A stretch of DNA of 36,331 bases. It comes from Actinomycetes bacterium. GTDB taxonomy: Bacteria > Actinomycetota > Acidimicrobiia > Acidimicrobiales > Ilumatobacteraceae. A model generated the notes under the pieces. The model saw nothing but the letters and a program-made list of their open reading frames with translations. It was not told the origin of the DNA and made no database searches. Of this stretch, positions 4,002 through 23,788 are shown piece after piece (position 1 is the stretch's first letter; each line of letters opens with the position of its first letter). The stretch lies in contig JANXUX010000223.1 in the NCBI GenBank assembly GCA_025351965.1, forward strand, positions 1-36,331, in the 5' to 3' direction. The position numbers and the translations under genes are program-made.

Positions 4002-4283
4002 ATGACCGTCGATCATCCCGACCGCCGTGCGCTCGAGTGCGCCGGCTGGCGGACCCTGCTCGACTACCGCGAGAACCACGTCCGCGACGACGAGGGCACG
4101 CTGCTCGCCGTCATCCCGCGCTGGACTGCCGAGGCCGAACGATTCGACGATGCAGCCCGTTCCGAGCGCGTCATCGTTGCCTCGGCGACCGCGACCTCAC
4201 GAGACGAGGTCTGGGCCAAGCTCCGCCGCGCAACGGCCATCGCCGGCCTCCGCCCCTACGACGGAGCCAACGACTTCGCCTGA
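4002..4283 (+). CDS. Small hypothetical protein (about 93 aa)
   Basis: Open frame MTVDHPDRRALECAGWRTLLDYRENHVRDDEGTLLAVIPRW...; no competing gene on the other strand; ATG at 4002 preferred over the longer ORF-track start. Confidence 0.5.
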   Translation: MTVDHPDRRALECAGWRTLLDYRENHVRDDEGTLLAVIPRWTAEAERFDDAARSERVIVASATATSRDEVWAKLRRATAIAGLRPYDGANDFA

Positions 4284-4335
4284 CGGCGTGGCCGGCGTTG
4301 CGCGATCTGTGATCAGCGCCGCGTCAGCACATGGT

Positions 4336-4410
4336 GGGACGTTCCGCGCCCTCGGGTGGCTGTGGTCCCGCTGGGCGGGACGGATCGAACACGAGGGCGC
4401 GGAACGTCCC
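4336..4410 (+). repeat. 75-bp palindromic interspersed element, copy 1 (perfect 19-bp outer arms, 7-bp inner hairpin)
   Basis: gggacgttccgcgccctcg (4336-4354) is the exact reverse complement of cgagggcgcggaacgtccc (4392-4410); inner gtcccgc-tgg-gcgggac. About 62/75 identical to the reverse complement of 14000-14074. Confidence 0.92.
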
Positions 4411-4413
4411 GGC

Positions 4414-4443
4414 CGCTGCGGCGCGGGTCGCTGCGGCGCGGGC
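4414..4443 (+). repeat. 15-bp tandem duplication next to palindromic element copy 1
   Basis: cgctgcggcgcgggt / cgctgcggcgcgggc, 14/15 identical. Confidence 0.8.
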
Positions 4444-4488
4444 CGCACAGATGGGTCGGCGCCATCAGCCGGCGGTCGGTTGGCGCGG

Positions 4489-6087
4489 TCAGTCCGCGCG
4501 GTGGCCGTTGAGGCGCTTGTACATCGCCCGTTGGGACGTGGCCATCTGCACGAACTCGGCGTACAACTGGGCGTGGACCGCGGTGTGCGCGGGGATCGGC
4601 TCGAACGAGCGGGCCGTCGGAGCGGCAGCGACGATGTCGTCGAGGGTGAGGTGGCCGAGGTGCATCGCCGCGAACCAGGCCGCGCCGCGCACGTTGACGT
4701 TCGCCGGGTCCACGACACGAAGGATCGGTCGGCCGATGACGTCGGCGTGGATCTGGCACCACAGGTCCGAGGTCGCCCCGCCGCCGAGCAGGCGCAAACC
4801 GTCGAGTGGTCGCTTGGCGAAGTGCTCGGTGGCCTCGAGCAGCCAGCGCACGTTGTAGGCCACGCCTTCGAGCACGGCGCGCACGAGGTGGGCGCGCGTC
4901 GTCGACATCGAGATGTTGAGGAAGCTGGCGCGCAGGTGCTCGTCGGACACGGGGGAGCGTTCGCCGGCGAGCCATGGGCAGAACAGGACGCCGCCACTGC
5001 CGGCCGGAGCGGTCGCGGCCTCTGCCGTGAGTGCGTCGTAGCCACCCTCGAACCCGTCGTCAGCGGTGAGTACGGAGTCGCGCAGCCAACGCAGCGCGGC
5101 ACCGCCGACCTCTTGGTTGTTGGCGATCAGGTACGAGCCGTTACCCACGCCCGGCACAGATGCCATCTGATGGGTGATGTCCGTCTTCTTGAACGGCACG
5201 GGTGCCGACACCCAGGCCGTCGTCGAGATCGCGATGTGGCCTGCGTAGTCGGCGACCGCGCCGGCGCCCATTGCCGCTGTGTGCAGATCCGGCACCCCGC
5301 ACACCACTGGCGTGCCGGCAGGCAGCCGCTCCGTGACGGCGAAGTCGGCGGCGACAGATGCGGTCAACGGCCCGAGCAGCGAGCCGGTCGGGAGCAGCTC
5401 GGGCAGCTTCGCGGCGGTGCGCTTGGCGAGCCGGACAAGTGTCGAGTTGTACGCGACGGGGGCGCCGGGACGGTTGTCGGTGAGCCACGAAGCGACCATC
5501 GACGCCGGCGTCGCGGCGATGCGTCCGGTGAGTCGCGCGCCGACGAAGTCCACCGGCTCGAGCAGCGCGGCTGCTGCGCGGTGGACCGAGGGGCGATCGT
5601 TGGCGAGGAACTGTTCGTGCCCGGTCGGGTCGGCACCGTTCGGGTTGGGCGCGCCGCCGGCGAGGCGCAACCACTGAGCGACCTTGGCCGGTCCGTATCC
5701 GGACACAGCGAGGGGCCCGCCCGTGATGCGCCTCGACCATCGGCCGCCTCGGTGATCGGACCAGAGGATGCACGCGCCGACGGCACCACCGTCCGCACCG
5801 ACGGGGATGGTCGAACCCCACTGGCCGGTGATACCGATGCCGTCGCACGGCGCGGCGACCGCAGCCGCAGCGACCGTCTCGCGCACGGCGCCGACGAGGC
5901 CGGTCCACCACTGGTCGGTGTCCTGGGTCGCGCCACCATCGGGTGTGCGGAGGGTGTCGACGGACCGGAACGCAGATGCCAGGACCCGACCGGCGATGTC
6001 GACGACGGCCACCTTCGTACCGCCGGTGCCGAGGTCGATCGCGAGGTACCAGCGGTGCTCGATGTCCGAAACCATGGGCGACATCAT
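4489..6087 (-). CDS. FGGY-family carbohydrate kinase (xylulokinase-like)
   Basis: WYLAIDLGTGGTKVAVVD phosphate loop, GITGQWGSTIPV, GVPDLHTAAMGAGAV, LRLLGGGATSDLWCQIHADVIGRPI; the N-terminal extension in the ORF track to 6930 is spurious. Confidence 0.92.
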   Translation of the reverse strand: MMSPMVSDIEHRWYLAIDLGTGGTKVAVVDIAGRVLASAFRSVDTLRTPDGGATQDTDQWWTGLVGAVRETVAAAAVAAPCDGIGITGQWGSTIPVGADGGAVGACILWSDHRGGRWSRRITGGPLAVSGYGPAKVAQWLRLAGGAPNPNGADPTGHEQFLANDRPSVHRAAAALLEPVDFVGARLTGRIAATPASMVASWLTDNRPGAPVAYNSTLVRLAKRTAAKLPELLPTGSLLGPLTASVAADFAVTERLPAGTPVVCGVPDLHTAAMGAGAVADYAGHIAISTTAWVSAPVPFKKTDITHQMASVPGVGNGSYLIANNQEVGGAALRWLRDSVLTADDGFEGGYDALTAEAATAPAGSGGVLFCPWLAGERSPVSDEHLRASFLNISMSTTRAHLVRAVLEGVAYNVRWLLEATEHFAKRPLDGLRLLGGGATSDLWCQIHADVIGRPILRVVDPANVNVRGAAWFAAMHLGHLTLDDIVAAAPTARSFEPIPAHTAVHAQLYAEFVQMATSQRAMYKRLNGHRAD

Positions 6088-12929: not shown

Positions 12930-13871
12930 TCAGGCCCTCCGGCTGCGGTGGAAGTCGCGGATGGACGCCGCGCTCCAGTTGTCGTGCTGCTCGCCGTAGC
13001 CCTCGTCGCCGTCGATCGACCAGCGCATGAGTGAGTTGATCGTGTACAGGTTCGGGTTGATGTTCCAGCCGAACCCATTCACCGAGCGACCCTCGGCGGT
13101 GAACGTGCGGCCGAGCTCGTCGGTGCCGACGATCACGACGTGCGTCGGGTAGCCCGACCCATCATCGCGCTGCAGCACCTGATGTGTACCGGAGGCGATC
13201 TTGGACTGCTCGCCGTCACGACGGAGGAACCCGTGCACGTTGACCGCGCCGTTGCCGAAGTCGCCGCACATCGAGAAGAACCCGTCGTCGTTCGCCGCCG
13301 TGCCCCAGGTGTAGGGCGCGTACCGGGCCGGACCCATCACCGTGTCGCCGAACTGGCTGCGCACGCTCCAGGAGCGGTCGCGGAACCCGACGCAGTCGAT
13401 GGCGATCCTCTCCTCGTCGAGCACGATGGTGCCGGTCGCCCGGGTGGCCTGGTCGTAGTGGGTGTGGAGGCGGAACGGCGCATCGATGCAGCGCACGTCG
13501 AGGTCGATGTTCAGATCGCCGCCGTCGGGATCGTCGTAGGCAACGGTGTATCGCGTCAGCGGCTCGGTCGCCGTGTAGCGGATGCCGTTGGCGAGGTGCA
13601 GGTCCGACAGCGGCGTCTCCGGCATCGGCAGGTGCCAGAAGTTCTTGGCATACCGGGCGGTCGACAGTTGGTCGGCCGCGCCGTCCCACACGTAGACGGC
13701 ACCGGCGGCCACGCCCAGGTTGGCCCGGAAGTACGGGTAGAACTGCACGGACATCTTCCGCTCGGGGATGGCGAACGTGAACCAGCAGGTCTCGGACCAC
13801 TCCACCTCGTTGCTGGTCGGGACGTGGAACTCGTCGTCGATGTTGCCGGAACCGATCGGTGGTGTCGTCAT
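12930..13871 (-). CDS. DUF7064/DUF7065-like (CrtC-related beta-barrel) protein of unknown function
   Basis: GFRDRSWSVRSQFGDTVMGPARYAPYTWG (G-x-R-D-x-S-W motif), HTHYDQ, AEGRSVNGFGWN. Confidence 0.65.
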   Translation of the reverse strand: MTTPPIGSGNIDDEFHVPTSNEVEWSETCWFTFAIPERKMSVQFYPYFRANLGVAAGAVYVWDGAADQLSTARYAKNFWHLPMPETPLSDLHLANGIRYTATEPLTRYTVAYDDPDGGDLNIDLDVRCIDAPFRLHTHYDQATRATGTIVLDEERIAIDCVGFRDRSWSVRSQFGDTVMGPARYAPYTWGTAANDDGFFSMCGDFGNGAVNVHGFLRRDGEQSKIASGTHQVLQRDDGSGYPTHVVIVGTDELGRTFTAEGRSVNGFGWNINPNLYTINSLMRWSIDGDEGYGEQHDNWSAASIRDFHRSRRA

Positions 13872-13921
13872 GCGCAGCCACCTTGGCGAACTCCGCCGCC
13901 ACCAGTCAACGTGGGCCACTC

Positions 13922-14002
13922 GTCAGTGGCGTCATTGGCGTCAGTGGCGTCAGCGACGTCAGTGGCGTCAGCGACGTCAGCGGTGTCAGCGGTGTCAGCG
14001 GG
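13922..14002 (+). repeat. 9-bp tandem repeat array, nine copies (consensus gtcagyggc / gtcagcgac), abutting palindromic element copy 2
   Basis: gtcagtggc gtcattggc gtcagtggc gtcagcgac gtcagtggc gtcagcgac gtcagcggt gtcagcggt gtcagcggg. Confidence 0.93.
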
Positions 14003-14074
14003 ACGAATCGCGCCCTCGGGGACGTGGTGTCCCACCCAGCGGGACCACAGCCACCCGAGGGCGCGAAACGTCGC
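14000..14074 (-). repeat. 75-bp palindromic interspersed element, copy 2 (inverted relative to copy 1)
   Basis: Arms gggacgaatcgcgccctcggg / cccgagggcgcgaaacgtcgc; its reverse complement shares the 31-bp core cgcgccctcgggtggctgtggtcccgctggg with copy 1. Confidence 0.92.
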
Positions 14075-14238
14075 AGGGATGGGTCGCGGCCGCACGGCTG
14101 TGCCCGTCATCGAGGTGGCCGGCGGCGCCTCGGCCCAGGCCAACTTCCAGCGCATCATCCACGTCGTCTGAGCGGGCTGAGACCTGAGCGCAGCGCTGGA
14201 CGCGCCGCTCGCGGACCGTCAGCAATACAGTCGGCGAG

Positions 14239-14925
14239 ATGTCGACATCCTCTGCCACTCCGCTGTCCGTCCACCGCCCGACGACCACACCTCGGGGCGC
14301 GATCATCGTGCTGCAGGAGGCGTTCGGCGTGAACGACGACATCGAGGACGTGTGCAGCCGGTTCGCCGACGCCGGTTGGCTGGCGATCGCGCCGCACCTG
14401 TTCCACCGTACCGGTGACCCTCAGCTCGGGTACGACGACTTCTCCAAGATCGGTCCCCATTTCGAGGCGCTGACCCCTGCCACGATCCTCGCGGACATCG
14501 ACGCTGCCCTGACCAGCGCTGCGGGCGAGGGCTTCGCGCCGCCATCGATCGGTGTGGTCGGGTTCTGTATGGGTGGCACGCTCGCGCTCCATACTGCTGT
14601 CGAGCGGGAGGTCGGCGCGGCGGTGACGTTCTACGGCGGTGGCGTGACCGCCGGGCGCTTCGGTTTCCCCTCCCTCGTCGAGGTCGCGCCTCGACTCGCT
14701 GTGCCGTGGCTCGGCCTCTTCGGCGATCTGGATACGGGCATCCCCGTCGACGACGTCGAGGCGTTGCGGACGGCAGCGGCGACGTCGGCTGCCCCGACCG
14801 AGATCGTGCGCTATCCCGAGGCGAACCACGGGTTCAACTGTGACCGCCGGGCGAGCTACCACGCTGCTTCTGCGTCCGATGCCTGGCGGCGGACGCTCGA
14901 CTTCTTCGCAGCGAACCTGGCCTGA
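14239..14925 (+). CDS. Dienelactone hydrolase family protein
   Basis: IIVLQEAFGVNDDIEDVCSRFADAGW, nucleophile GVVGFCMGGTLAL, LFGDLD, EANHGFNCDRR. Confidence 0.93.
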   Translation: MSTSSATPLSVHRPTTTPRGAIIVLQEAFGVNDDIEDVCSRFADAGWLAIAPHLFHRTGDPQLGYDDFSKIGPHFEALTPATILADIDAALTSAAGEGFAPPSIGVVGFCMGGTLALHTAVEREVGAAVTFYGGGVTAGRFGFPSLVEVAPRLAVPWLGLFGDLDTGIPVDDVEALRTAAATSAAPTEIVRYPEANHGFNCDRRASYHAASASDAWRRTLDFFAANLA

Positions 14926-20664: not shown

Positions 20665-22869
20665 TCACCGCTTCAGGTCGGGACGGCCCACAGCATCGAA
20701 AATGAGGTTCGTGTAGAACTGTGCCGCGCCACCACCGCAGGCGATGTGGGTGCCGTCCTTGCACAGGCTCGTCGACATCGATGCGACCTGCCAGTCGAGC
20801 ACCGTCACGTTCGGGTACTGCGCCGGAAGCGCGCGGATGAGTTCGTTGTTGCCGTCCTGCCAGCTCTTCGGCACTCGCACGGTGAGGAAGACGACCGTCG
20901 GGGTCAGGTCGGGTGTGAGTTGGGCCATGATCCGCTGGAAGTCGCCGGCGCTGACGCTGCCGTTCGTGCCGATCTGGATGACCACGACGCTGCCGATCTG
21001 GTTGTTCGTGCGGAGCGTCTCGACAAGCGTCGCCATCTCCGGCCCCTGCCGACCTTTGAGAGCATCGACGTAGAAGCCCCCGGTCTGGAGATTGGTGATC
21101 GCTCCGAGCATCACCGACTCACCGAGCGCGATCGGCTGGATGCCTGACGGCACCGGTGCGGTCGTCGCTGCCGTGGTGGCGGCCGGCGCAGTTGTCGCGA
21201 GAACCGTCGCAGGAACCGTCGTCGGCGCGGATGTCGTCGCGGTGTCAACGGCGGGGGTTGTGGCGGTTGTCGTCGCAGCCGTCGTGTCGGCCTGGGCGAT
21301 GGTCGTGGTCTCGGCGACGGTGGTCGTGGCGGCCGTCGACGGTACGGCCGTGGTCGTCGCCCCGTTGCCGGTCGTATCCGATGTCGCCACGGCGTCGACG
21401 GTCGTGGCGGAGTTCGAGGCTTGCCCGGTGACGGTCGAGGCGACCACGGCCGGTCCGCCCGAGTTCGGTCCGTCGGCCGCTGCTCCTGCCTCGACGCTGC
21501 ACTCGACATCGCCGACGCAGACGTTGCGTGCCACTGCGAGGCTGACACCGGCAAAGCCGAGCACCGTCGAGAACACGGCGACGACGGCGACCAAACGCCG
21601 GCGGTGCCGTTCAGCCGGCGGTCCGCTGGGCACGTTCTCGCTGCGCAACCACGACCTGAACCTCCCGGTGCGGAAGGGAGTCTCGACGAGGCGGTAGCTC
21701 AGCTCGGTGATCGGCAGGGTGATGACCATCGCGAGGGCGAACTGCTTCCACGTCATCGCCAGACCGGCCTGCTGACGGATGATCTGGTAGATCGGCCAGT
21801 GGTACAGGTACAACCCGTAGCTGCGCGTCCCGATCCAGGCGAACAGCGGGTTGCCGAGGATCCGTCCGGTCAGCGCCCGACGGTGGGCCACGGCGGCGAT
21901 CACGGCGAGCGTCGCCACCCCGACGAGGAGGAACCCGCCACGGAACAGCCACGGGTTGTAGCGGGTGCCGAACGAGCTGCCCGAGCCCGACAGCGAGAGT
22001 GTGAACGCGAGCACAACGAGCAGCGCGACGCTGATCAACGCGATCAGGTCGAGACGGCGACCCTTGTCGCGCATCGGGCCACGGAGCAGGGCCAATGGCC
22101 GCCACCACATCGCGAACGCCGCGCCGAGCAGTAGCCCCCCGGCACGAGTGAACGTGCTCAGGTACAGCGCGTCGTCGATGTTGATGCACCGTCCGAACAG
22201 CGTCGCATAGCCGTGCGCCGAGCCAGTCCCGCACTCGTCGGCCACATCGCCGCCGACGAACAGGATTGCGACCACGATCGCGATCGCGACGCTGATCCCG
22301 GCCAGCCAGACCGCGACCTTGGGGAGGCGGTCGCGGCCTCGTCGCAGGATCAACGCCATCACCAACGGCCAGACCAGGTAGAACTGCTCCTCGACGGCCA
22401 ACGACCAGAGATGGCGCAACGGCGCGAATGCCTCGGACGCGGTGTAGCTCTGACCGACGACGATCTGATACCAGTTGCTGCCGTAGAAGATGCCGCCGAG
22501 GAAGTCGCCCCGGGTCCGGCCCTGCGGCCGCCGGTTGACCACTGCGAGGTAGGTCGCGAGGACGGCCATCATCACGAACAGCGCGGGGAGCAGGCGCCGG
22601 AACCGGCGCTTCCAGAACTGCCAGAGTTCGATGCGATCCGTGCGCTCGTGCTCGCCGATCAGGAGCAGCGTGATCAGGTAGCCGCTGATCACGAAGAACA
22701 CCTCGACACCGAGGAAACCGCCGCTCAACCATTCGTGGTTGGCGTGATAGATCATCACCGCGACGACGGCCAGGGCGCGCAGACCATCCAGGCCAGGCAT
22801 GTACCGGGTCTGGCTGATGTACGACATGGCGTTGGCGGACGGCCGTTGCGGCGGGGGCCAGGAGGACAT
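20665..22869 (-). CDS. Acyltransferase family (OafA/YrhL, acyltransferase 3) with C-terminal SGNH-like domain
   Basis: YMPGLDGLRALAVVAVMIYHANHEWLSGGFLGVEVFFVISGYLIT, then a Thr/Ala-rich linker, then GESVMLG, IGTNG and DGTHI blocks. Confidence 0.92.
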   Translation of the reverse strand: MSSWPPPQRPSANAMSYISQTRYMPGLDGLRALAVVAVMIYHANHEWLSGGFLGVEVFFVISGYLITLLLIGEHERTDRIELWQFWKRRFRRLLPALFVMMAVLATYLAVVNRRPQGRTRGDFLGGIFYGSNWYQIVVGQSYTASEAFAPLRHLWSLAVEEQFYLVWPLVMALILRRGRDRLPKVAVWLAGISVAIAIVVAILFVGGDVADECGTGSAHGYATLFGRCINIDDALYLSTFTRAGGLLLGAAFAMWWRPLALLRGPMRDKGRRLDLIALISVALLVVLAFTLSLSGSGSSFGTRYNPWLFRGGFLLVGVATLAVIAAVAHRRALTGRILGNPLFAWIGTRSYGLYLYHWPIYQIIRQQAGLAMTWKQFALAMVITLPITELSYRLVETPFRTGRFRSWLRSENVPSGPPAERHRRRLVAVVAVFSTVLGFAGVSLAVARNVCVGDVECSVEAGAAADGPNSGGPAVVASTVTGQASNSATTVDAVATSDTTGNGATTTAVPSTAATTTVAETTTIAQADTTAATTTATTPAVDTATTSAPTTVPATVLATTAPAATTAATTAPVPSGIQPIALGESVMLGAITNLQTGGFYVDALKGRQGPEMATLVETLRTNNQIGSVVVIQIGTNGSVSAGDFQRIMAQLTPDLTPTVVFLTVRVPKSWQDGNNELIRALPAQYPNVTVLDWQVASMSTSLCKDGTHIACGGGAAQFYTNLIFDAVGRPDLKR

Positions 22870-22901: not shown

Positions 22902-22975
22902 GTTCGGGTCACACGTCAGGGATGTTCGGGTCACACGTCAGTGATGTTCGGGTCACACGTCGGTGATGTTCGGGT
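22902..22975. repeat. 22-bp tandem direct repeat, three full copies plus a partial fourth, upstream of the IclR regulator
   Basis: gttcgggtcacacgtcagggat / gttcgggtcacacgtcagtgat / gttcgggtcacacgtcggtgat / gttcgggt. Confidence 0.95.
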
Positions 22976-22999: not shown

Positions 23000-23788
23000 G
23001 TGCCTGCTCAGCTCGATGATGCAACCACCGAGCATCGCTCGGGTGCCCAGAGCGTCGAGCGGGCGATCAGCGTGCTCCAGTGCTTCCGCAGAGGCCCGGG
23101 TGAGTTGGGGATCACGGAGATCTCGCGGCTGACGCATCTCAACCTGAGCACCGCGCATCGCATCGTCCGTGCCCTGTGTGCGGCGCAGTTCATGGAGCAG
23201 GACCCCGACAACGAGCGCTACCGGCTCGGCGCGGCGCTGCTCGTGCTCGGCCAGCGTGCCCTCGAGCACTCCGGGTTCGGTGCAGCGCTGCCGATCCTCG
23301 AGGAACTGGCCGAGACCACCGGGGAGTCGACCAGTCTCGGCATCCGCCGCGGTGATGAGGTCATCGTCATCCTCGCCGCGGCGTCACGGCAACGGCTGCG
23401 CTTCGACCACGAGGCCGGCGCCGGCATCGGACTGCACGCTTCGGGTATGGGCAAAGTCCTGCTCGCGTTCGCTGTCGACAGCCTGCGCACATCGGTCGAC
23501 AAGCTGCCGGCGCTCGACCGTTACACCGACACGACGATCACGTCGCGCTCGGCGCTGGTCGCCGAGCTCGAGCAGATCCGTGTCGTTGGATACGCGATCA
23601 ACCGACAGGAGCGTTACGACGGCGTGTTCGGTGTCGCGGCACCGGTGCTCGACCGTCGCGGTCGTGCCAACGCGGCAGTTGGTCTGCAGGGACCGTCCGT
23701 GCGTCTCGGGGTTGCCTCGCTCGAGGAGCTCGCCGTGCATGTCCGCGATGCCGCCGACCGGATCGCGGTCTCCGTCGACATCGCCTGA
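23000..23788 (+). CDS. IclR family transcriptional regulator
   Basis: SVERAISVLQCFRRGPGELGITEISRLTHLNLSTAHRIVRALCAAQFMEQD..., HASGMGKVLLAF effector-domain motif; GTG start at 23000. Confidence 0.94.
   Translation: MPAQLDDATTEHRSGAQSVERAISVLQCFRRGPGELGITEISRLTHLNLSTAHRIVRALCAAQFMEQDPDNERYRLGAALLVLGQRALEHSGFGAALPILEELAETTGESTSLGIRRGDEVIVILAAASRQRLRFDHEAGAGIGLHASGMGKVLLAFAVDSLRTSVDKLPALDRYTDTTITSRSALVAELEQIRVVGYAINRQERYDGVFGVAAPVLDRRGRANAAVGLQGPSVRLGVASLEELAVHVRDAADRIAVSVDIA

Follow-up and report, generated by a model that had tools for sequence, protein, structure and literature searches.

A dispersed family of REPIN-like palindromes and its probable AbiEi/Vsr-like nuclease partner in the Ilumatobacteraceae

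The window analyzed here, a 36,331-nucleotide stretch from an actinobacterium of the family Ilumatobacteraceae (order Acidimicrobiales), contains two copies of a 77-bp palindrome belonging to a family that is dispersed through its source genome and inserted at sites that are empty in related species. Palindromes of this kind also flank a gene whose product joins an AbiEi-like domain to a Vsr-like nuclease domain, and this gene-element association recurs, with different palindromes, in many genomes. The element is probably a non-autonomous REPIN-like mobile element that has the nuclease gene as its partner and is moved by it, and we conclude that the two make up a system resembling a REPtron in which a nuclease takes the part of the RAYT.

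A dispersed family of 77-bp palindromes

Copy 1 spans positions 4335 to 4411 of the forward strand. A sequence-only reading had described it as a 75-bp palindrome with perfect 19-bp outer arms and a 7-bp inner hairpin, and this architecture is borne out. The left arm (4336 to 4354; GGGACG-TTC-CGCGCCCTCG, in which CGCGCCCTCGG is invariant in 28 aligned copies) pairs perfectly with the right arm (4392 to 4410), and the inner hairpin GTCCCGC-TGG-GCGGGAC is found at 4365 to 4381, with 97% of cells paired over the 28 copies. The size needed correction, as the conserved unit is 77 bp, made up of the 75-bp core with one conserved Y before it and one R after it. Comparison with elements of the congener G004 and of another genus, g11, resolves copy 1 into two hairpin units of about 34 bp on the forward strand, unit 1 at 4336 to 4369 and unit 2, inverted with respect to unit 1, at 4377 to 4410, with the inner hairpin at their junction. 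Folding z-scores for copy 1 are -8.1 and -9.5, none of 200 shuffles is as stable, and the element folds far better than shuffled sequence on both strands.

Copy 2, a whole 77-bp unit in inverted orientation (13999 to 14075, reverse strand), is 83% complementary to copy 1 over 77 nt, with 9,587 nt between the arms. The two form the longest inverted pair in the window and share the 31-base identical run that had been reported. Both are intergenic under a codon-usage gene model, again as first read, copy 1 lying between convergent genes (4002 to 4283, forward, and 4489 to 6087, reverse) and copy 2 between divergent ones (12930 to 13871, reverse, and 14308 to 14925, forward). Tandem repeats abut each: 2.3 copies of a 15-bp repeat (GCCGCTGCGGCGCGG) at 4412 to 4446 and a 9-bp array of the CGTCAGTGG type at 13912 to 14001, both given on the forward strand. 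An Rfam search of the element returned no match at the gathering score and no named family was found otherwise, in agreement with the first impression. Elsewhere in the window, the gap between two divergent genes (20665 to 22827, reverse, and 23000 to 23788, forward) contains a 22-bp direct repeat, GTTCGGGTCACACGTCAGTGAT, three times at 22902 to 22975, and these copies may be operator sites.

The sequence-only reading would have been refuted had the two window copies been the only ones, but the genome holds many more. Nucleotide search, together with a covariance model built from 28 copies, recovered at least 34 ungapped full-length copies, plus three cut by contig ends, from the 4.84-Mb source genome, a fragmented metagenome-assembled genome of 456 contigs that is 93.5% complete and breaks at repeats. 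All 34 distinct copies share the 75-bp core length, one of them (C175) having a degraded left end, and their mean pairwise identity is 78%. The consensus ends read YGGGACG...CGTCCCR. The copies vary in the WWN spacers and inner loops but hardly at all in GGGACG, CGCGCCCTCGG, CTGT, the inner hairpin and the mirror parts, although this core conservation is an upper estimate since the search partly favors core-bearing copies. Because the arms are nearly invariant, no covariation appears among the copies of this genome. Where a REP stem would carry a conserved mismatch or bulge, the WWN/NWW positions avoid pairing at only p about 0.02; at that level, and with their order ambiguous, we do not claim the AA/TT spacers as a target-site duplication.

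The copies are strongly biased in location. All but one of the 34 are intergenic by a simple codon-usage gene caller, and convergent gaps hold 15 of the 25 copies with both neighbors known, against 17% of intergenic bases (p = 2e-6; 450 kb of background), with some copies in divergent gaps too. Of 67 element flanks, 30 have tandem repeats within 120 bp, compared with 26 of 282 intergenic pieces (p = 1e-10). These repeats often touch the element directly, and some are built from its end sequence.

Empty orthologous sites, proposed earlier as a check on mobility, were found for copy 1 and for a second copy, C394. The convergent junction that holds copy 1 measures 205 bp in the source genome and lacks the element in two species of the same genus, where it shrinks to about 57 bp (G004) and 11 bp (G005). 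C394 lies in a 203-bp junction whose counterpart in G004 is 13 bp, and the adjoining junction shows the reverse, with an element in G004 and a short gap in the source genome. The absence of copy 1 from the orthologous junctions of two congeners therefore identifies it as insertional DNA. Flanking DNA at the empty junctions differs along with the element, the boundaries being too diverged for exact ends or a target-site duplication to be read.

These junctions bear on whether the palindrome is instead an immobile functional DNA or RNA structure, such as a terminator or a nucleoid or segregation site, that selection keeps in place at the ends of genes. Such a function would predict the strongly conserved core positions, the convergent-gene bias and the very stable fold, but we hold the explanation to be extremely improbable given that close relatives lack the element at orthologous junctions, that copies also sit in divergent gaps, that the stem is followed by no T-run and both strands fold alike, and that the sequences are species-restricted and match nothing in Rfam.

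Related elements in G004 and in two genomes of genus g11 (G124 and G144) have the same length and layout built on other core sequences. Every element compared consists of two inverted hairpin units of about 34 bp, with unit cores CCCTCGGG / CCYGAGGG in the source genome, CCCATGGT / ACCATGGG in G004 and CCCACGGG / CCCGTGGG in G124 and G144. Compensatory changes are present at 8 of 16 pairs of the g11 hairpin units, more than in shuffles and slid controls. This two-unit design is the REPIN layout (PMC3116915), including the choice of one long hairpin or two hairpins. A scan of named-organism genomes located the element in G004 (JAOBWO01, Acidimicrobiales MAG RYN_39) and gave two single matches in unrelated phyla, which we treated as chance. 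Matches of the element RNA model in a small-genome relative, G140, were simple perfect hairpins and were set aside; the long perfect hairpins of that genome (GTTCTCGGCGCGGTATGTCCCGC...; L056, 1501 to 1572, and L058, 1501 to 1574) are a different repeat type.

A nuclease gene flanked by palindromes

Comparison of the element-adjacent genes of the source genome and G004 singled out one gene that is bracketed by elements in each of the two species. In the source genome the flanking copies lie at C371:42-118 and 1137-1213, and the G004 ortholog is flanked by that species' own diverged element; from one species to another, divergence of the element goes with divergence of the protein. The gene is roughly single-copy and encodes a 311-residue protein in which an AbiEi-like winged-helix N terminus is fused to a DUF559/REase_MTES_1575 (Vsr-like) nuclease domain. 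Residues 8 to 176 match AbiEi profiles (E = 6e-20), and Pfam AbiEi_4 matches 24 of 28 homologs. The C terminus gives weak REase_MTES_1575 and DUF559 matches, with Pfam MTES_1575 matching 24 of the 28 members and the protein of the source genome itself falling below the curated cutoff. Invariant in the 28 homologs are E207, D239, E250-x-D252, H257, D266 and R269-D270. We read the nuclease half as a putative PD-(D/E)XK domain. A structure model (whole-protein pLDDT 42) has a local alpha-beta-beta-beta arrangement, the order expected of such a core, at pLDDT 70 to 83 and was too poor for a fold search, and a PDB profile match to the mobile-intron nuclease 3r3p was nonsignificant (E = 0.38).

No AbiEii toxin was found among the neighbors scanned in the source genome, G004 and G003. 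As far as the fetched loci reach, the gene has unrelated neighbors in six congeneric species. Plasmid records contain no instance of the protein, and phage matches were partial only, in two Meiothermus phages. Among open-license papers, we found nothing relevant that connects DUF559 or AbiEi with palindromic or inverted repeats. The source genome, G004 and G005 also contain more distant AbiEi/nuclease homologs (L232, L235 and L238) flanked by 62- to 69-bp inverted repeats that are non-hairpin and share the end TGCAAGCGCG.

The sequence-only reading had likened the palindromes to REP/BIME elements; the likeness stands for an interspersed palindromic intergenic family and breaks down for the expected RAYT partner. 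A Y1_Tnp search gave 0 matches in the source genome, the same search being positive in 5 of 14 control genomes, and the gene that is flanked by the element encodes the AbiEi-like/Vsr-like nuclease protein. The listed same-genus relatives likewise returned no Y1_Tnp gene, and the GTAG tag at the stem foot is absent from the element consensus. With neither a RAYT nor a GTAG tag, the family therefore departs from RAYT/REP membership in two tested features. One could still suppose an ordinary REP/REPIN family whose RAYT has been lost or falls in an assembly gap, which would suit the REPIN-like layout, the intergenic bias and an assembly that is incomplete and broken at repeats, and Y1_Tnp genes do occur in 16 of 121 family genomes. 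We find this very unlikely, however, as most other genomes carrying this element type also lack Y1_Tnp (G027 is the exception), the sampled RAYT-like loci of the family lie near other, unrelated palindromes, and the flanking copies belong to a different gene. The palindromes near the RAYT-like loci L115 to L124 include, for example, AGTGCCAGGCACT and GGTGTCAGACACC types.

Homologs of the partner gene are present in 85 of 151 family genomes. Repeats common to both 600-bp flanks (E <= 1e-6) were detected for 45 of 48 family homologs, which are related and so not fully independent loci, versus 3 of 167 comparably sized control genes (Fisher p = 5e-39). The proportion was 21 of 23 for close homologs and 24 of 25 for more distant ones. 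Many of the flanking repeats are palindromic, and some clades have long non-palindromic inverted repeats. Outside the family, 5 of 12 testable loci for small MTES_1575-domain proteins across the phylum had flanking repeats, against 0 of 15 for large multidomain proteins at the same cutoff (p = 0.008, computed with 16). In a distant actinobacterium (G268, locus L270), 49-bp direct repeats that are 92% identical abut a 307-residue homolog on both sides.

Membership of a mobile family would predict that a flank palindrome is scattered through its own genome and missing from others. The gene-flank palindrome of G006 occurs about 25 times in G006, about 22 times in G008 and about 12 times in G002, and is absent from six other congeners, including the source genome. 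G002 and G008 contain elements of the G006 type with no more than weak homologs of the partner gene, and elements can therefore persist as orphan populations. When 17 gene-flank palindromes were joined into a single query, matches were obtained in 17 of 18 genomes, almost always at each genome's own part of the query among the matches listed, and the source genome gave none. Dispersed loci number at least 29 in G027, a one-contig genome, and at least 13 in G157; several each are found in G083, G144, G124, G018 and G029, among others, and few or no copies beyond the flanks in G031, G205 and at the second G004 locus. In G124 the gene-flank palindrome is itself the dispersed family. The gene-flank palindrome of G144 (GGACCCACGGGTCC core) differs from the dispersed type that this genome shares with G124 (GCGCCCACGGGCGC core), possibly through a shift of specificity.

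The main rival account reverses the relationship, with another enzyme moving the palindromes and the AbiEi/nuclease gene, as a selfish or defense gene, homing into them or sheltered by them, such that the association reflects target preference. The nuclease half does resemble Vsr/EDxHD nucleases, some of which are homing enzymes; the unrelated gene neighbors in six same-genus species are what movement of the gene unit itself would produce; and G002 and G008 have elements with no close homolog. Yet the repeats on either side differ from species to species and accompany the gene in 45 of the 48 homologs, even in clades with long non-palindromic inverted repeats, a pattern that looks more like ends specific to the enzyme than like a shared target. 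We accordingly judge homing into the palindromes unlikely, if more credible than the other alternatives.

Proposed mechanism and significance

The association of gene and element is well supported, and from it we infer that the nuclease protein recognizes, cuts and moves the element. The winged-helix half would recognize palindromic units both in cis and in trans, and the nuclease half would nick or cut at element ends. Host replication and repair could then insert the freed or copied element, chiefly in 3' intergenic gaps, and repeated end-cutting and re-copying may generate the tandem repeats that abut many copies. Whether this amounts to a new class of mobile-element enzyme is, in our estimation, evenly balanced; in such a class AbiEi-like/Vsr-like nucleases, not HUH or DDE enzymes, would spread species-specific palindromes as autonomous palindrome-gene-palindrome units with REPIN-like non-autonomous derivatives, widespread in one Acidimicrobiales family and thinner elsewhere in the phylum.

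These results suggest that short repeats can spread in bacterial genomes by a route not described before. GTAG-type REPs alone have a proposed partner enzyme, the CGTC type having been described without one (PMC3733652). A nuclease family with species-specific palindromes on either side, from which the repeats dispersed in each genome can be predicted, offers a concrete, testable partner for a set of orphan repeats, as well as a possible function for a widespread uncharacterized actinobacterial protein family.

Comparison with known systems

A REPtron consists of a RAYT with flanking REPs (PMC3116915, PMC3733652, PMC8266576). Like REPINs and REPtrons, the elements described here are intergenic and multicopy and have two inverted palindromic units with a hairpin or two-hairpin fold, and they flank a roughly single-copy gene with which their species-specific sequences diverge. 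Unlike in REPtrons, the partner is an AbiEi-like plus Vsr-like nuclease protein and not an HUH/Y1 transposase, the element has no GTAG tag, and the gene unit sits in unrelated neighborhoods in congeneric species. CGTC-tagged REPs, which apparently have no dedicated transposase, are likewise short palindromes, mostly in head-to-head dimers, with no RAYT (PMC3733652), but here the stem is longer, CGTC forms part of the paired terminal arm instead of an unpaired tag, and a partner gene has been identified.

MITEs and TIRtrons likewise comprise a short element whose ends are inverted and a gene with similar ends on both sides (PMC3733652); they differ from the present system, for which no known transposase family was found and no target-site duplication could be read. 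The protein has parallels of its own. It shares with AbiEi, the antitoxin of the type IV AbiE system, an N-terminal half that matches AbiEi profiles, and departs from it in the added C-terminal nuclease domain and in having no AbiEii toxin among the neighbors scanned. With EDxHD/Vsr-like homing endonucleases it shares a similar C-terminal catalytic motif pattern and a nuclease gene tied to its own spread, but it differs from them in standing free, in its fusion to an AbiEi-like domain, in the palindromes on either side of its gene and in its link to dispersed short elements.
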